Shown: positions 4,569 through 24,443 of the stretch, in pieces
How positions within the stretch are numbered: the stretch's first letter is position 1
Layout: each line of letters starts with the position of its first letter
Assembly: GCA_029936485.1 (NCBI GenBank)
Contig: JAPYSM010000005.1
Coordinates: 1 to 33,250, forward strand
Origin: Dehalococcoidia bacterium
GTDB taxonomy: Bacteria > Chloroflexota > Dehalococcoidia > Lucifugimonadales > Lucifugimonadaceae
Direction: 5' to 3'
Length of the DNA: 33,250 bases
Notes under the pieces: generated by a model
Told to the model about the DNA's origin: nothing
The model's database searches: none
What the model saw: the letters and a program-made list of their open reading frames with translations, nothing else
Position numbers and translations under genes: made by a program

Positions 4569-5735
4569 CTAACCCGTATAGGCGTACTTTTTCAGGGCCA
4601 ATTCGTCCAGGTCGCAGCCCCAGCCTGGCTCCTGCGGGATGGCCATGTAGCCGTCTTTTATATCCGGGAGCACGGTCGTCAGCTCGTCACGCCACGGCGC
4701 TGCGTCCACGTCCGATTCCATGATCCTGACGTTCGATACCGAGGCGGTCAGGTTCAAGCTCTGGAAGCTGGACAGGTGTGATCCATAGTTGTGCGGGGCG
4801 ATGTTCAGGTCGTAAGTCTCGGCGAGGTCCGCCACCTTCTTGGATTGCGAGAATCCCTGCCACTGCACATCCACCTTCACCGTGTCCATTGCGTGGCGCT
4901 TGAAGTAGGGCTGGTACTGTCGCACGCCGAGGAGCTGCTCCCCTGAGCAGATCGGCGTAGTGGTCGATGCCTTAAGCTGGGCCAGCGCCTGCGGATCCTG
5001 GTTGTCGATCTCCAGCCACATCAGATCGTGTGCCTCAAGCTCGCGTGCGATGCGGATGGCGCCTTCTGTTTTGAAGTTGTAGTTGATGTCCAGCGCTATG
5101 CCGATATCAGGGCCAACGGCCGACCGCATCGCGCCGATCTGTCCTTCGACGTGATGAACCAGTTCCGTGGTCGCGTTCTGGTCGTCAGCCTGGAAGAATC
5201 CCTGGTTGATTGCGCTCGATTTTTCGCCGTGGAAGATGATGTTCGTCTTGAACGCCGTGTAGCCGCGTTCAACTGCCTCGGCTGCGCAATCAGCAACGTC
5301 TTCCAGCGTTACCAGCGGTGTGCCGCCGTAGAACTCGGCGTTACCAGCGCGATACGTCGCGAGATGGGACCAGTAGACGCGTTGCCTATCCCGGTGCGGG
5401 CCGCCAACGAGCTGGTGGACCGGCACGCCGTAGCGCTTGCCCTTGATGTCCCAGAGGGCGAGCTCGATTCCTGCAATCGCCATCGCGTTGGCGCCGCCGG
5501 ACATCGAACGTGTTTGCCGGTACATGTCCATGTAGAACTTTTCGACCGGGTCCGGGTCTTTGCCGATCAGCCAGCCGGACAGGTCTTCAATGATCCCCGG
5601 AAGGCCCTTCGATAGCTTGCCCTCACCGAACTGGCTGTATCCGGTGATGCCCTCGTCCGTCCGCACGGCGCAGAAGAGCCATGCTCCCCAACCGCCGGAC
5701 TTGACTGCAAAGGTATCGATTGCGGTGATCTTCAT
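4569..5735 (-). CDS. Enolase-superfamily (MR/MLE-type) enzyme, paralog 4 of 5
   Basis: This 388-residue protein aligns without gaps to its downstream neighbour at 3315. Catalytic positions: FKTN (Lys163, Asn165), Asp216 in ALDINYNF, Glu242 in WLEIDNQ, Glu266 in CSGEQLLG, and His315 in APHNYGSH. It has Asn218 where the last paralog has His. The conserved block FKTEGAIRIARELE follows the first metal ligand, and AMDTVKVDVQWQGFSQSKK precedes the His315 loop; both blocks are close to invariant among the five. Divalent-metal-dependent proton abstraction from a carboxylate substrate is the family chemistry; the specific acid is not predictable here. The ATG at 5735 has GGACAA about 6 nt upstream. 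Confidence 0.93.
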   Translation of the reverse strand: MKITAIDTFAVKSGGWGAWLFCAVRTDEGITGYSQFGEGKLSKGLPGIIEDLSGWLIGKDPDPVEKFYMDMYRQTRSMSGGANAMAIAGIELALWDIKGKRYGVPVHQLVGGPHRDRQRVYWSHLATYRAGNAEFYGGTPLVTLEDVADCAAEAVERGYTAFKTNIIFHGEKSSAINQGFFQADDQNATTELVHHVEGQIGAMRSAVGPDIGIALDINYNFKTEGAIRIARELEAHDLMWLEIDNQDPQALAQLKASTTTPICSGEQLLGVRQYQPYFKRHAMDTVKVDVQWQGFSQSKKVADLAETYDLNIAPHNYGSHLSSFQSLNLTASVSNVRIMESDVDAAPWRDELTTVLPDIKDGYMAIPQEPGWGCDLDELALKKYAYTG

Positions 5736-5762
5736 GTGATGTTGTCCAATTGGAGGTTGGTA

Positions 5763-5821
5763 GTAGGGGCGTATGGCAATACAACCTCTTGCGTGTCAAC
5801 CATGGGCGTATTGCCATACGC
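5763..5821. repeat. GTAGGGGCG-type long inverted repeat, copy 4
   Basis: GCGTATGGCAATAC (5769-5782) and GTATTGCCATACGC (5808-5821) are perfect 14-bp inverted arms separated by 25 nt. The left arm is preceded by GTAGGG, making it a variant of the family at 4519. It occupies most of the gap between two enolase genes and ends 8 nt from the 3' end of the upstream one. Confidence 0.75.
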
Positions 5822-5829
5822 GTCTTTGT

Positions 5830-6996
5830 CTAACCCTTGAATTCGTACTTCTTCGCTGCGACTTCATCCAGCTCGGTGCCCCATCCGGGAGCCGTCGGGA
5901 TGGTCATGAAACCGTCTTTGATTTCCGGGACGTTTGTGGTGATTTCGTCGCGCCACGGCGCTGAGTCCACGTCCGATTCCATGATGCGCACGTTGGATAC
6001 AGCGGCAGTCAGGTTCAGGCTCTGGAACGAGGACAGGTGTGAGTTGTAGTTGTGCGGAGCGATGTTCATCTCGTACACCTCCGCCAGCTCTGCGACCTTC
6101 TTAGCTTGAGAGAAGCCCTGCCACTGCACATCCACCTTGACGGTGTCCATGGCGTGCTTCCGGAAGTAGGGCTGGTACTGGCGCAAGCCAAGAAGCTGCT
6201 CGCCTGTTGTGATCGGAGTGCGCTGCTGCATCTTGAGCTGCAGAAGAGCGTCCGGGTCCTGGTTGTCAATCTCCATCCAGTACAACTCGTACTCTTCAAG
6301 CGCCCGGCCGATAGCTATCGCGCCCTCTGTTTTGAAGTTGTAGTTGATGTCCAGGAGGATATCGATGTCCGGCCCAACAGCCTCGCGCATCGCACCGATC
6401 TGCCTCTTGGTGTGCCTGACAAGGTCGGTCGGGGCGTTCTGGTCGTTAGACCCCGCAAACATGTTGCCGATCATCGACGGGTTCTCACCAGGGAAGATGA
6501 TATTGGTCTTGAACGCCGTGTAACCGGCGTCCACGGCCTCTCGCGCGCAGTCGGCCAAGTCATCCATAGTGCGCAGCGGCGGCGTGCCCATCTCTGCGGA
6601 TCGACGTGTCCTGTAGGTGGCTAGGTGTGACCAGTAGACGCGCTGCTTCTCGCGGAACGGGCCGCCAACAAGGCTGTACACCGGTACTCCGTGGTATTTG
6701 CCCTTGATGTCCCAGAGCGCCAGCTCGATACCGGCCATCGCCATCGCGGTCGCCCCACCGGTCTCGGCGCGCCTGTGGCGGTACATGTCCATAAAGATCT
6801 TGTCGACCGGAAGCGGGTCCGTCCCGATAAGGCTTCGGCTCAGGTCTTCTATCAGCGCCGGGAGACCACGGTAAAGTGCGCCCTGTCCGTACTCGCCGTA
6901 TCCCGTGATACCGGCGTCCGTCCGGATGGCGCAGAACAACCACGGGCCGCGACCACCGCTGTCGACAAGGAAGTTCTCGATTGCTGTGATTTTCAT
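5830..6996 (-). CDS. Enolase-superfamily (MR/MLE-type) enzyme, paralog 3 of 5
   Basis: The protein has 388 residues, again gap-free against the two downstream paralogs. Visible active-site residues are Lys163/Asn165 (FKTN), Asp216 (LLDINYNF), Glu242 (WMEIDNQ), Glu266 (TTGEQLLG) and His315 (APHNYNSH). The segment QLKMQQRTPITTG replaces the usual QLKxSTxT of the siblings, and the capping-domain loop (about 38-46, QGALYRGLP) also differs, which is where MR-type enzymes usually read their substrate. The ribosome site GGACAAACACAA-ATG matches the spacing at the neighbouring paralog. It starts 45 bp after the preceding gene in the cluster. Confidence 0.93.
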   Translation of the reverse strand: MKITAIENFLVDSGGRGPWLFCAIRTDAGITGYGEYGQGALYRGLPALIEDLSRSLIGTDPLPVDKIFMDMYRHRRAETGGATAMAMAGIELALWDIKGKYHGVPVYSLVGGPFREKQRVYWSHLATYRTRRSAEMGTPPLRTMDDLADCAREAVDAGYTAFKTNIIFPGENPSMIGNMFAGSNDQNAPTDLVRHTKRQIGAMREAVGPDIDILLDINYNFKTEGAIAIGRALEEYELYWMEIDNQDPDALLQLKMQQRTPITTGEQLLGLRQYQPYFRKHAMDTVKVDVQWQGFSQAKKVAELAEVYEMNIAPHNYNSHLSSFQSLNLTAAVSNVRIMESDVDSAPWRDEITTNVPEIKDGFMTIPTAPGWGTELDEVAAKKYEFKG

Positions 6997-7041
6997 TTGT
7001 GTTTGTCCGATCCGTTAATGAGGGATGCGCAGATGCGGTAG

Positions 7042-8208
7042 TTATTTATTCCAGGCGTATTTCTTCAGCGCGTCCTCGTTGAGGTCGCATCCCCATCCGG
7101 GGGTGGTTGGAACCATCATGTAGCTGTCAATCACCTCTGGTCGTTCGGTGAACAGTTCGAATCGCCACGGAACACCCTCAGGGTCGCTCTCCATAATTCG
7201 GACATTGGAGACCGAAGCGCACAAATGTACCGACTGGAAGCTGGCTAGCTCTGATGCCGGATTGTGCGGTGCGATATTCAATTCGTAGGTCTCGGCCAGG
7301 TCGGCGACCTTCTTGGAAACGCCGAATCCTTGCCACTGCACGTCTACCTTGACCGTGTCCATGGCGTGGGCCTCGAAGTAAGGCAGGTACTCACGCATCG
7401 TGAAGTGCTGTTCGCCGGAGCAGAGCAACGTGGAGGTAGACGCCTTCAGTTGCGCCAGCGCCTCCGGGTCTTCGTTGTCATGCTCAATCCAGAACAGGTT
7501 GTACGGCTCTAGAGCACGGGCAACCCTGATGGCGCCTTCAGTTTTGAAGTTGTAGTTGATGTCCAGAAGGATATCGACGTCGTCTCCGACCGCGTCACGC
7601 ATTACTTCGATCTGTTTCGTGGCGTGCCGTACCACGTCCGTGTCTGCGCGCTGGTCGTGGCTCTTGCCGTCACGGCTTTGTGAGATAGCCCGAGGGGTCT
7701 CGCCCGGCCACAGGATGTTGGTTTTGAACGCCGTGTATCCCGCCGCAGGGACCTCCTGCGCCGCGGCCGCCACTGCGGCCCAATCCTTTAGAGGCTTGTC
7801 GGGAGCCAACGTCGGGTCGCCCGCGCGAGCGCTGGCGAGGTGACTCCAGTAGACACGCTGCTTGTCCCGGTACGGCCCTCCCAGCAGGTTGTTGACCGGC
7901 ACGCCCATCGCCTTCCCCTTGATGTCCCAGCACGCCAGCTCGATCGCAGCGATGCCCATGTTCACAAGGCCACCCGGGGCCTGTCGCATCAGGCGGTACA
8001 GGTCAAAGTAAAGCTTCTCGACCGCCTCGGGGTCTTTGCCGATCACATGCGGCTTGAAGTCCTCGATCAGCCCGACCAGCGCGTGCGATGCGACGCCCGA
8101 TCCGAACTCACCGTATCCGGTAATACCGGCGTCAGTGCGCACGGCGGAGAACAGCCAGGGTCGGCGGCCTCCATCGACTACAAATATTTCTACATCTGTG
8201 ATCTTCAC
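7042..8208 (-). CDS. Enolase-superfamily (MR/MLE-type) enzyme, paralog 2 of 5
   Basis: I place the start at a GTG (8208), giving VKITDVEIFVVDGG and exactly 388 residues like the siblings. AGGACGTAAGAAC just upstream provides the ribosome site. The frame stays open to a TTG at 8310, but that stretch has no homology to the family start. Catalytic residues are Lys162/Asn164, Asp216 (LLDINYNF), Glu242 (WIEHDNE), Glu266 (CSGEQHFT) and His315. It is the most divergent copy: the loop after His315 is HNPASE rather than HNYxSH, so the second histidine (320) is Glu, and the insert at 172-188 is rich in charged residues. With the paralog at 8322 it forms a subgroup with a one-residue deletion near 17 and a compensating insertion near 180. 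Confidence 0.92.
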   Translation of the reverse strand: MKITDVEIFVVDGGRRPWLFSAVRTDAGITGYGEFGSGVASHALVGLIEDFKPHVIGKDPEAVEKLYFDLYRLMRQAPGGLVNMGIAAIELACWDIKGKAMGVPVNNLLGGPYRDKQRVYWSHLASARAGDPTLAPDKPLKDWAAVAAAAQEVPAAGYTAFKTNILWPGETPRAISQSRDGKSHDQRADTDVVRHATKQIEVMRDAVGDDVDILLDINYNFKTEGAIRVARALEPYNLFWIEHDNEDPEALAQLKASTSTLLCSGEQHFTMREYLPYFEAHAMDTVKVDVQWQGFGVSKKVADLAETYELNIAPHNPASELASFQSVHLCASVSNVRIMESDPEGVPWRFELFTERPEVIDSYMMVPTTPGWGCDLNEDALKKYAWNK

Positions 8209-8321
8209 GTTCTTACGTCCTATCGAATGCTTCCGGCAATTTGTCTCTAACGAGTACGGCAATACGCTCGAAGATCGGCGTGCCCTGAGGCTCTCAAAGG
8301 ATCGCCTCAAATAAGCACTCC

Positions 8322-9488
8322 CTACTTGTTCCAGGCGTGCTTCTTCGCCACCTCTTCGTTCAGGTCTGTGCCCCAGCCGGGACCCTGTGGGATGTCGATG
8401 TAACTGTTCTTTGGCTCAGGTACCACCGTCACCAGCTCGTCCTTCCACGGAATTGCGTCGGGGTCTGACTCCATGATCCTCACGTTGGAAACGGAAGCGC
8501 ACAGGTTCAGGCTCTGGAAGGTCGACAGGTGGGAGTTGTAGTTGTGCGGAGCGATGTTCAGCTCAAAGGTCTCGGCCAGATCGGCGACCTTCTTGGCGTT
8601 GCCAAAACCCTGCCACTGCACGTCTACCTTCACCGTGTCCATCGCCCGTAGATCAAAGAAGGGTTGGTACTGACGCATCGTGACCAGTTGCTCGCCGGAA
8701 GTTATCGATGTCCGGGTCGATGTCTTCAGTTGCAATAGTGCCTCGGGATCCTGATTGTCTATCTCCAGCCAGAAGAGCTTGTACGGCTCAAGCGCACGGG
8801 CGACGCGGATCGCACCCTCTGTTTTGAAGTTGTAGTTGATGTCCAGACAGATATCTATCTCAGGCCCGACGGCATCACGCATTACCGAAATCTGCTTCAC
8901 CGCTTGGTTGATAATGTCCGACTCGGCAAGCTGGTCGTGCGTCTTCCCATCACGACCCTGGGTGATGGCCCATGAGGGGTCGCCAGGGAACAGGATGTTC
9001 GTCTTGAACGCCGTGTATCCCTTATCGACCGCCTCCCGGGCGCAATCGGCGACGTCGTCCCAGGTCCGAAGTGGCTTCGCGCCCCAGAGTTCGGGGTCCC
9101 GCGCACGGTATGTCCCCAGGTGGGACCAGTACACGCGCTGCTTCTCCCTGAAGGGGCCACCCACGACGCTGTGTACCGGCAATCCAAGCGCCTTGCCTTT
9201 TAGATCCCACAGCGCCAGCTCGATGCCAGCAATCGCCCACGCCGTAACGCCGTAAGGCGTACCCCGGTATGCGCGATACAGATCAAAGTAGAGTCGCTCC
9301 ACGGGCGTCGGGTCCTTGCCAATCAGCCAGGAACTCATGTCCTGCACAAGGCCCTGCAGGCCGTGGGTCACGCCGCTCTCGCCGAACTCGCCATAGCCGG
9401 TGATCCCGGCGTCGGTTCGTATGGCGACGAAGTGCCATGGTCGTGCCCCGCCATCAACCGCGAACGTATCTATCCCGGTGATCTTCAT
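8322..9488 (-). CDS. Enolase-superfamily (MR/MLE-type) enzyme, paralog 1 of 5
   Basis: The 388-residue protein starts at an ATG (9488), giving MKITGIDTFAVDGG, with AGGAG 10 nt upstream. A longer open frame reaches 9566 but does not resemble the family. Active-site residues are Lys162/Asn164 (FKTN), Asp216 (CLDINYNF), Glu242 (WLEIDNQ), Glu266 (TSGEQLVT) and His315 with His320 (APHNYNSH). It shares the short N-terminal loop and the QGRDGKTHDQ insert with the paralog at 7042. It is the first enolase gene after the transporter, 77 bp downstream of it, so the transporter and all five enolases plausibly form one transcript. Confidence 0.93.
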   Translation of the reverse strand: MKITGIDTFAVDGGARPWHFVAIRTDAGITGYGEFGESGVTHGLQGLVQDMSSWLIGKDPTPVERLYFDLYRAYRGTPYGVTAWAIAGIELALWDLKGKALGLPVHSVVGGPFREKQRVYWSHLGTYRARDPELWGAKPLRTWDDVADCAREAVDKGYTAFKTNILFPGDPSWAITQGRDGKTHDQLAESDIINQAVKQISVMRDAVGPEIDICLDINYNFKTEGAIRVARALEPYKLFWLEIDNQDPEALLQLKTSTRTSITSGEQLVTMRQYQPFFDLRAMDTVKVDVQWQGFGNAKKVADLAETFELNIAPHNYNSHLSTFQSLNLCASVSNVRIMESDPDAIPWKDELVTVVPEPKNSYIDIPQGPGWGTDLNEEVAKKHAWNK

Positions 9489-9565
9489 TCGGCGAGCACT
9501 CCTATTTTGAGATGTCAGAGTCGGCTTGGAATCTATTGGGCGGCGCCACTGTACACCCGGGATCA

Positions 9566-10825
9566 CTAGTCGGGGGTCTCGGCACTAACCGGCCCTTCAG
9601 ATAATTCTTGTGAGAGTTTGCTATCGCGGCGGCCGGCAAGCACAAGCAGACATAGCGCGGGAACCAGAGCAGTTGCACCAACAGCAAGCCCGAATCGGAT
9701 CGATCTGATGGTGGCGATGATGCCGATAACAGGCCCAAAAGTGACCTGTCCAAGGGAATCACCCTGTGAGTGCATCGAAATAACGGTCGCTCGCACCGAC
9801 GGATCGAGCCCCCGGTTTATCCACGTCAGCACCACCGGCCGACTTGAGTGATGGAGGGCGACCACAACCCAGTAGGTTATGACCAGCGCAAGAAGTGATG
9901 AAGTGAAGGCGAAAGCGAAGAGGGTCACCGTCAGTAGAGCTGTCAAAACCGCAAGCGTACGCGTAGGCCCTGTCCTGGTGGTCACGGCACCGGTTTTCCC
10001 GACGACCCCCGTGATACCCGCGCCGAGAAGCAGCCCCCCGGAGGCGATGACAGCAAACCAGACAAGTGGATCCAGCCCGGCTAACTCTGGAAGATTCACC
10101 TGTTGCAACAGGTGCGCGGGCCAGAGTCGATCAAAGGCCTCATACGACGCCCCGAATATAGCGACAACGGCCAGCGTGAATACTATCGCAGCACGTCCCC
10201 GAATTGCGCTCGCGCTCGAGCGTAACGTGACCTTGATGCCCCCGAACACGCCGTCGACGCTTCCGGCCGGTTTGAAGTTACGTTCCGCCATGAACACGAA
10301 TAAGAACCCAGACAGGAACAAAAACAGTATTCCGGACACGAAGAACGGAATCTGAAGATCAACTATCGCCAAGGAGACCCCGACGAAGATCCCGAGAAAG
10401 GCCGCCAACTGGCCGATCTGAGCCGATCGCAGAAATACGGCCCCAACACTATCGTCACCAACCTCGTCGGCGATCCACGCCTCTTGCGCACCGCTCGTGA
10501 AGGTGAAGCCAAGCGCCCAGAACACCTGTGCAATGAGGATCATCCACAGGTTAGGCACGGACGCCCAGACCAGAAATCCGATCGCCAGGATGGCGTATCC
10601 GATAATGACGGACCTTCTCCGTGAGAAAGCGTCCGCAACGATCCCGGTCGGCACCTCGGTGATCAGCACACTTCCCTCAAGCACTGCTCCAACCAACAAC
10701 AACTGGAACGGGTTCAGCCCTACTTCCACGATCGCGTAAACCGATGACGTGGTGAAGGTGACGTGGAACGCGAACTGGGTCCATGCATGAAGAGAGAGAT
10801 ACGTTGTGCGCGGCTGGAGTTGGAT
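9566..10825 (-). CDS. MFS transporter, start codon non-canonical or lost
   Basis: This is a major facilitator superfamily protein with multiple hydrophobic segments. The loop between helices 2 and 3 reads EVPTGIVADAFSRRRSVIIG, the MFS signature. The first usual start is a GTG at 10729, but that would remove helix 1. The same frame continues upstream as QPRTTYLSLHAWTQFAFHVT and TTSSVYAIVEVGLNPFQL, the expected first helix, with no ATG, GTG or TTG before a stop near 10883. An ATC codon at 10825 lies 9 nt after AGGA and is my preferred start (about 419 residues). The gene heads the enolase cluster, so the likely cargo is its substrate. Drug-efflux function cannot be excluded. Confidence 0.85.
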   Translation of the reverse strand: MQLQPRTTYLSLHAWTQFAFHVTFTTSSVYAIVEVGLNPFQLLLVGAVLEGSVLITEVPTGIVADAFSRRRSVIIGYAILAIGFLVWASVPNLWMILIAQVFWALGFTFTSGAQEAWIADEVGDDSVGAVFLRSAQIGQLAAFLGIFVGVSLAIVDLQIPFFVSGILFLFLSGFLFVFMAERNFKPAGSVDGVFGGIKVTLRSSASAIRGRAAIVFTLAVVAIFGASYEAFDRLWPAHLLQQVNLPELAGLDPLVWFAVIASGGLLLGAGITGVVGKTGAVTTRTGPTRTLAVLTALLTVTLFAFAFTSSLLALVITYWVVVALHHSSRPVVLTWINRGLDPSVRATVISMHSQGDSLGQVTFGPVIGIIATIRSIRFGLAVGATALVPALCLLVLAGRRDSKLSQELSEGPVSAETPD

Positions 10826-10885
10826 CGGCCACTGTCCTGCACTTATGACGTGATGTAGGCCACATACGACCGCTTTTGGCCTCGG

Positions 10886-10898
10886 CTGTCAATGACAG
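10886..10898. promoter_or_regulatory. Palindrome in the divergent MFS/GGT promoter region
   Basis: CTGTCA-A-TGACAG is a perfect 6+6 palindrome in the 177-bp interval between the upstream start proposed for the transporter and the GGT start. It could be a repressor operator controlling the enolase cluster. No regulator gene is adjacent and no clear -35/-10 pair was found, so this is tentative. Confidence 0.25.
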
Positions 10899-23369: not shown

Positions 23370-24443
23370 TTAGAACCCTGGCTTTGATCGGGCGTACTGA
23401 TCCGGCCACTCCACGTCGTCGCCAAGTTCTATCGCGGCGTGTAGCGGCCAGTATGGATTGCGCAAGAGTTCCCGCGCCAGGAAGATCACGTCCGCCTTGC
23501 CGGAAGTAAGCACCTCTTCTGCCTGCGCCGATTCCGTGATCAAGCCCACTGCGCCTGAAGGCACCCCTGCGCCAGAGCGGACGGCATCGGCGAACGGTAC
23601 CTGATAGCCTGGCCGGAGCGTCATCTGCTGATGGGGCGAAACTCCTCCGGAGGAGCAATCGACCAGATCAACCCCGTGCCTTTTCAAAGACTTCGAGAAC
23701 TGGACCGCGTCGGGCACGTCCCAACCACTGCCTTCGACCCAATCCGTGGATGAGATGCGGACTAGAAGCGGGAGGTTCTCCGGCCACACTTCGCGTACTG
23801 CGTCTACGATCCTCAACGGGAAGCGTGCACGATTTTCGGCGCTGCCGCCGTACGAGTCTTCGCGATGGTTCGAAAGCGGTGATAGAAACGTGTGAGCAAG
23901 ATAGCCGTGTGCGAAGTGCAGTTCTACGACCTTAAACCCGGCGTCGAGGCTGCGTTGCGCTGCGTCGCGCCAGTCATCAACGAGGGCATCGATATCTGAT
24001 TCGCTCAGTTCGTCCGGCGTCGCCCAACCCTCGTCAAACGGTACCGGTGAAGCGCCGACCGGCTGCCATCCACCGTCCTCGGCACCTACCAGACCGCTGC
24101 CGCGCCACGGCGCTTCACGTGAGGCCTTGCGACCGGCGTGGGCGAGCTGTACGCACGGAACCGAGCCATTCTCGGAGATGAAATTCGTGATCGGCTTCCA
24201 GGCTTCGGCCTGTTCGTCGTTCCAAATACCAGCGTCCGACGGACTGATACGTCCCTCCGGATTTACCGCAGCCGCTTCGGTCATCACCATCCCGGCGCCC
24301 CCAACGGCCCGGGTTCCAAGGTGGACCATGTGCCACTGATTCGGCATGCCGTCCTCGCACGAGTACTGGCACATAGGCGCGACGAAGAGCCGATTCGGGA
24401 ACTCTACGTCCCGCAATTTGTATGACGAAAAGAGCTGACTGAT
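23370..24443 (-). CDS. Old yellow enzyme, YqjM-type NADH:flavin oxidoreductase
   Basis: This FMN-dependent ene-reductase-type barrel has PMCQYS (regulatory Cys25 and Tyr27), QLAHAGRKA (99-107), LHFAHGYLAHTFLSPLSNHR with substrate-binding His176 and His179 and Tyr181, and late DVIFLARELLRNPYWPLHAA for FMN phosphate binding. The first usual start is a TTG at 24416, which deletes the start of the first strand. The frame continues upstream as SQLFSSYKLRDVEFPNR, matching the family start (LFTPITIKDMTLKNR in YqjM). The codon where Met belongs is ATC (24443), 7 nt after AAGGA. I therefore extend to 24443 (357 residues). It reduces activated C=C bonds, with unknown native substrate, and is followed by the redoxin gene. 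Confidence 0.9.
   Translation of the reverse strand: MSQLFSSYKLRDVEFPNRLFVAPMCQYSCEDGMPNQWHMVHLGTRAVGGAGMVMTEAAAVNPEGRISPSDAGIWNDEQAEAWKPITNFISENGSVPCVQLAHAGRKASREAPWRGSGLVGAEDGGWQPVGASPVPFDEGWATPDELSESDIDALVDDWRDAAQRSLDAGFKVVELHFAHGYLAHTFLSPLSNHREDSYGGSAENRARFPLRIVDAVREVWPENLPLLVRISSTDWVEGSGWDVPDAVQFSKSLKRHGVDLVDCSSGGVSPHQQMTLRPGYQVPFADAVRSGAGVPSGAVGLITESAQAEEVLTSGKADVIFLARELLRNPYWPLHAAIELGDDVEWPDQYARSKPGF

Follow-up and report, generated by a model that had tools for sequence, protein, structure and literature searches.

A probable AUC start codon in an efflux-type transporter gene and further putative conserved AUH starts in one genus of marine bacteria

Translation starts at AUA, AUC or AUU codons (together AUH) have been described in several bacteria. 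In Listeria monocytogenes, rnhC (ATC) and infC (ATT) are called experimentally confirmed, four more conserved genes are reported with a fixed non-canonical start, and fewer than 0.3% of the core ORFs are reported to have rare or flexible start codons (PMC13068326). AUH starts described in Staphylococcus aureus are those of cvfC1 (AUU), ccpN and citZ (both AUA) and infC (AUA); there, AUU and AUA reporters gave about 10% of the AUG level in poor medium, and such starts are thought to hold expression low (PMC13009471). The infC and pcnB genes of Escherichia coli start with AUU (PMC1780047), and ATT is also reported for infC in Xanthomonas (PMC5559785) and Yersinia (PMC3091656). On the mechanistic side, IF3 is reported to favour strong codon–anticodon pairs in a cell-free system (PMC10158994), and in mycobacteria an ATC combined with a Shine–Dalgarno (SD) sequence is reported to give low but above-background initiation (PMC4633059). 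The AUC start is thus already known from Listeria rnhC, and what is new in the genus considered here is the number of such starts and their conservation. The open literature library that was searched yielded no report of AUC starts in this bacterial group; unusual starts are reportedly also the subject of a study on Deinococcus deserti.

The window, i.e., the whole stretch of 33,250 nucleotides that was analysed, belongs to a genome (G000) from a little-known group of marine bacteria, and carries a transporter gene of the MFS type with an apparent AUC start. As with Listeria rnhC, an AUC start is kept across genomes of a lineage; however, the Listeria cases described are six conserved genes of one species, whereas the present ones are four of 137 orthologue pairs compared across species-level genomes of one genus, by sequence only. 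With S. aureus the genus shares conserved AUH starts, which there go with a strong SD and expression thought to be kept low, but the S. aureus codons described are AUU and AUA with an extended SD, in contrast to AUC with a short SD in the MFS gene. The E. coli starts have in common with it a third-base mismatch disfavoured by IF3, but there two shown examples are named, against five or more genes of this genus in which an AUH start is conserved. The features of the MFS gene and its upstream region are as follows:

9566..10825, minus strand: TetA(P)-like transporter of the MFS efflux type, 419 aa when counted from the ATC (Pfam MFS_1, NCBIfam tet_MFS_P_a)
10823..10825, minus strand: ATC, putative start codon of the MFS gene, presumably read as fMet (orthologue alignment, outgroup ATG)
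10835..10838, minus strand: AGGA, SD-like, 9 nt 5′ of the ATC (sequence, with SD-like tetramers in orthologues)
10889..10891, minus strand: in-frame TGA closing the MFS frame upstream (sequence)
10727..10729, minus strand: GTG, the first legal codon in frame, not accepted as the start (lies in the first conserved block; G005 has GTC)
10887..10892, minus strand: TTGACA, −35-like element of a putative conserved promoter (5/5 genus copies)
10864..10869, minus strand: TCGTAT, −10-like element ending 38 nt upstream of the ATC (5/5 genus copies)

Read from 10825, the frame scores 60 bits against Pfam MFS_1 (PF07690), above the gathering cut-off of 33.4, which places it in that family. Its best full-length NCBIfam profiles are those of the efflux pumps TetA(P) (NF000043, 264.5 bits) and Tet(40) (NF000049, 220.6 bits). 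Because these scores fall well short of the curated cut-offs (750 and 800 bits, respectively), the product is best described as a TetA(P)-like pump and not as a member of TetA(P). A run of MR_MLE (enolase-superfamily) genes (window 4572–9566, minus strand) adjoins the transporter. An Rfam search of the window returned no family, RNA folding around the MFS start gave no special or strong structure (z +1.47), and a plasmid search yielded short unrelated matches only.

The first-pass annotation had proposed that no in-frame ATG, GTG or TTG (hereafter legal codons) occurs between the upstream stop and GTG 10729, and that an AGGA stands 9 nt 5′ of an ATC at 10825, right where the protein should begin. 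Both observations hold in the MFS frame (9566–10825, minus strand), with AGGA at 10838–10835 and ATC at 10825–10823; between TGA 10891–10889 and GTG 10729 the only in-frame ATA, ATC or ATT codons are ATA 10846, ATC 10825 and ATC 10732. The placement of the protein start at the ATC is borne out by relatives: position 8 of the NCBIfam TetA(P) profile aligns to the sixth residue when the ATC is taken as the first, and the same position is indicated by the orthologues, by the ATG of a homologue from another genus and by the substitution pattern.

The MFS gene is present in five of eight genomes of the genus (G000, G001, G003, G005 and G006), in 6/76 genomes of the family (E 1e-20) and in 16/250 genomes of the order (E 1e-30). 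The G003 copy is decayed, with an internal deletion, stops and ACC at the codon in question; hence, among the genomes examined, the start-codon comparison uses only the four non-decayed copies. In the alignment of orthologues suggested earlier as a check, all four have ATC at the same aligned codon, preceded by an SD-like tetramer (AGGA at 9 nt in G000 and at 8 nt in G001, GGAG at 8 nt in G006, GAGG at 9 nt in G005). From the upstream stop to codon +45 these four copies share no position with a legal in-frame codon: such codons lie at +32, +41, +42 and +43 in G000; at +32 and +41 in G001; at −116, −79, −67, −58, −13, +21, +42 and +43 in G005; and at −23, −13, +21, +32, +41 and +43 in G006. The frame is open over its full length in G000, G005 and G006, while the G001 copy is split between contig C156, with the 5′ part, and contig C52, which has a near-identical 3′ part, and is not seen whole. 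Since the same ATC recurs in contigs of G005, G006 and G001 (C156), a base-calling error at this codon is very unlikely.

Beyond the genus, the homologue in G020, a member of another genus, has ATG in exactly the ATC column of an ungapped alignment. Among the homologues of family f6 (L066–L070), four of five (L066–L069) have GTG or TTG three codons upstream of that column, and all five f39 homologues (L071–L075) have ATG two codons downstream of it; a sixteenth, more distant MFS locus without its 5′ end (L035) was left out of the count. The remaining f6 homologue, L070 of G158, shows no legal start near the conserved N-terminus, and has a CTG four codons before the ATC column with an AGGA 9 nt upstream.

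The onset of coding constraint was located by counting pairwise differences at codon positions 1/2/3 among the four non-decayed genus copies. Before the ATC the differences are evenly spread, at 46/47/51 of 60 for codons −20 to −11 and a flat 35/37/38 of 60 for codons −10 to −1. After it they turn to the third position, with 3/10/36 of 54 for codons +1 to +9, 6/6/27 of 66 for +10 to +20, and 3/3/32 of 66 for +21 to +31. Coding constraint thus sets in with the ATC rather than at 10729. The third-base C of the ATC is weak evidence when taken alone, since six of the eight columns with isoleucine in all four copies are ATC throughout. The MFS gene combines the lack of a legal codon at its conserved start, an AUH codon at SD spacing and an onset of constraint at that codon, which is the pattern of an AUH-initiated gene. 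We place the start of translation at AUC 10825 with a probability of roughly 0.9, the position following from the comparative evidence and initiation itself being what we infer from it.

Several other readings compete with a start at AUC 10825. Translation might begin at a GTG at 10832, which lies 7 nt upstream in another frame with plausible first codons (VADPTPA...), and pass into the MFS frame by a one-base frameshift, either programmed or due to an error in the contig sequence. We regard this as quite improbable: an equivalent out-of-frame start is absent from that place in G005, G006 and G001, in G006 a TGA terminates the nearest out-of-frame reading from an ATG, and in the ATC frame the codons from the ATC onward show conservation at the protein level. 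The same conservation bears on GTG 10729, which as the first legal codon would give a transporter without its first transmembrane helix. However, codons 0 to +31, which such a start would leave untranslated, are under protein-level constraint (pairwise differences 12/19/95 of 192), and 10/11 homologues of other genera and families have a legal codon within three codons of the ATC column. The possibility raised by the first-pass annotation, that orthologues might start at the position of 10729, also fails, the codon there being GTC in G005; a start at this GTG thus has a very slight probability.

About as little weight falls on the gene being a pseudogene that has lost its start. The decayed G003 copy, with ACC in place of the ATC, speaks for it, but the open full-length frames of G000, G005 and G006 have a strong third-position bias, and the same ATC, SD and promoter are common to four genomes. 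The near-cognate ATA 10846 is in frame upstream in G000 and could be the real start, which would make the ATC an ordinary isoleucine codon; however, no ATA occurs at that place in the other three copies, codons −10 to −1 are without a coding pattern, and the AGGA would then fall inside the gene, so that this alternative, too, is extremely unlikely. AUC 10825 remains the preferred start.

Upstream of the MFS gene, TTGACA-N17/18-TCGTAT is found in all five genus copies, including the decayed one of G003, and reads as a putative promoter. The distance from the end of the −10-like element to the ATC is 38 nt in G000, 53 nt in G005, 39 nt in G006 and 94 nt in G001. Judging from the spacing in the window, transcription from TTGACA-N17-TCGTAT would produce a short leader of roughly 30 nt. 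The 30S subunit would then be placed by the AGGA, and the ordinary initiator tRNA (CAU) would pair with A and U and mismatch at the third base, the protein beginning with fMet as inferred from AUU and AUA starts elsewhere. As IF3 disfavours such pairs, the start might work as a throttle, or as an IF3-sensitive tuning of a membrane pump. The AUC start probably caps or tunes expression of the pump through SD-guided, IF3-disfavoured initiation.

The components that this mechanism would use were looked for in the genomes. ARAGORN called an initiator tRNA with anticodon CAU in G000, G006 and G003, and the gene for IF3 (infC) is present and itself ATA-started. A special initiator tRNA with anticodon GAU was considered and rejected: matches to GGGTTGATRACCC occur in several genomes, and in those scanned ARAGORN did not call them as tRNAs. 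The GGGCTCATAACCC matches called tRNA-Met by ARAGORN carry CAT; locus L057, which also has GGGCTCATAACCC, was not called, possibly since it lies near a contig end (hit C49:89-101).

Further genes with AUH starts, or with a switch to one, are found in the window and in other genomes of the genus:

24441..24443, minus strand: ATC, putative start of a second window gene (NADH:flavin oxidoreductase, OYE-like); ATC in 9/9 loci
23370..24443, minus strand: OYE-like gene started at this ATC (Pfam Oxidored_FMN)
L077 12719–11829 and 11694–10687, minus strand: neighbouring folD and pyruvate dehydrogenase E1-alpha (pdhA) genes, both apparently AUH-started genus-wide
L100 1258–2040, plus strand: FAH-family gene with an ATC/ATG switch among genomes of the genus

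The OYE-like product matches Pfam Oxidored_FMN with 240.1 bits (residues 4–337 to profile positions 2–336 of 342). Its gene has ATC in all nine loci of eight genus genomes with AGGA 7 nt upstream, the window copy showing AAGGA (24455–24451) 7 nt 5′ of the ATC; the next legal codon common to all is ATG at +23, and G003 alone has an ATG at −17. Differences by codon position are 130/139/119 of 280 before the start versus 37/0/87 of 252 after it, counted on eight of the nine loci with a tandem copy (L212) dropped. The tandem copies in question (L208 and L212, contig C76 of G005) have the same ATC start and leader; their flanks overlap, and identical rows may show one copy twice.

In folD, the start column shows ATC in G000, G006 and G007, ATA in G002, and ATT in G001, G003 and G005, while G004 has an ATT four codons upstream of that column. 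The codon at that place is thus AUH in 8/8 genomes and never ATG, GTG or TTG, with a clear SD before each; upstream in-frame legal codons occur only in G003 (GTG at −17) and G006 (from −26 up). The switch in codon-position differences is sharp, from 116/115/114 of 210 before the start to 0/6/86 of 189 after it, as counted on seven of eight genomes with G004 dropped for its offset. For an outgroup, 13 genomes were searched and 12 loci examined, of which eight have ATG, GTG or TTG at the start column; G010 has an ATT preceded by GGAGG, and a GTG 18 codons upstream of it, G009 has ATC but an ATG 13 codons upstream, and G008 and G039 have a legal codon elsewhere. The swapping of folD among the three AUH codons is, by these alignments, part of what is new in the genus. 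The pdhA gene starts with ATC in seven genomes and ATT in one of eight, with GGAGG 7 nt upstream in all, and its next common legal codon is ATG at +29. Upstream in-frame legal codons (GTG at −12 in three copies, GTG at −54 and ATG at −21 in G004) include none common to all, and the switch in differences is weaker (101/84/106 of 280 before versus 53/19/83 of 252 after). In other genera pdhA has ATG at this place (G009, G010) or three codons upstream (G008).

The infC gene has ATA in 9/9 loci; in seven of them the stretch between the upstream stop and +11 is free of legal codons, the other two having ATG at −56 (L042) and at −9 (L044); differences are 90/98/99 of 280 before versus 7/14/48 of 252 after, on eight of nine loci with the divergent L041 dropped. 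The FAH-family gene has ATC in G000 and G002 and ATG in the other six of eight genomes, with differences of 171/147/147 of 280 before versus 20/29/107 of 252 after. Its flanks are near-identical between G000 (ATC) and G007 (ATG), and the ATG allele of G007 also compares closely in context with the ATC allele of G002; as aligned, the gene is a natural ATG/ATC start-codon switch. Because several other genes of the lineage appear to use AUH starts, these are, on the comparative evidence, characteristic of the group rather than a fault in a single gene.

The frequency of such starts was estimated from 403 kb of G000 (window included) against 1.175 Mb of G003. A coding-potential scan pointed to other genes that read upstream of their first legal codon, and coding-filtered orthologue scans covered 112 and then 137 pairs. 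In the larger set, 118 pairs have a shared legal start (in G000 79 ATG, 20 GTG and 19 TTG); among the 19 without one, four were assigned AUH, one reflects a UGA inside a redoxin gene, and the other 14 are apparent boundary errors or without assignment. The AUH cases are folD and pdhA (each with ATC in G000 and ATT in G003), the OYE-like gene (ATC in both) and the MFS gene (ATC in G000, decayed in G003); without the last, with which the analysis began, the count is 3/136, and folD and pdhA are adjacent, so that the cases are not fully independent. Near the boundary in these 19 pairs, the columns that agree in their first two bases and have an SD tetramer in each of the two genomes are ATN (3), GCN (1), AGN (1) and CGN (1); the AGN and CGN columns correspond to the second codons of the OYE-like gene and folD. 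SD enrichment by codon over all ORFs did not place ATC among the 22 most enriched, and the SD test on orthologue pairs gave nine AUH/AUH pairs against 9.7 expected, chance SD tetramers swamping both tests. Since these tests did not single out ATC or AUH pairs, AUH starts form a small minority class. Conserved AUH starts seem several times commoner here than reported for Listeria, the AUH share of 3% resting on four genes.

A lipoprotein candidate (L083) is not supported as an AUH gene by its orthologues, as G006 has an ATG beside the position, G005 has legal codons upstream, and G007 is cut by a contig end. In a TrkA-like gene (L076 4744–4082, minus strand), a YaaA gene (L099 14524–15327, plus strand) and a TetR gene (L101 811–119, minus strand), conservation extends upstream of the first legal codon, and further AUH or CTG starts are possible there. 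The AhpC/redoxin gene (window 23658–22831, minus strand) has an in-frame UGA (TGA 23202–23200) in the context ...GNW-UGA-PYCRRQL, with UGA also in G003, possibly encoding selenocysteine.

A bolder and rather doubtful interpretation, which we put forward tentatively, is that the genus keeps a class of AUH-started genes (those for IF3, FolD, pyruvate dehydrogenase E1-alpha, the OYE relative, the efflux pump and more, perhaps 2–3% of genes) as a translation-level regulon encoded by the third base of the start codon, the expression of which would rise and fall in concert with the state of IF3 discrimination at the ribosome. FolD provides the formyl donor for fMet-tRNA synthesis. With ATC, ATA or ATT in all eight genomes and never a legal codon at that place, folD appears to fit such a regulon best.

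The gene finders in common use generally recognise only ATG, GTG and TTG as starts, so AUH-started genes would be cut short or misread: if the next legal codon that is shared were taken instead, 29 residues would be lost from the pdhA product, up to 23 from the OYE-like protein and about 10 from FolD, and the MFS pump would be without its first helix. The lineage may thus offer a natural test bed for whether starts with a third-base mismatch act as throttles, as IF3 sensors or are neutral drift, and the FAH-family ATG and ATC alleles, in near-identical contexts, would make this question directly testable.
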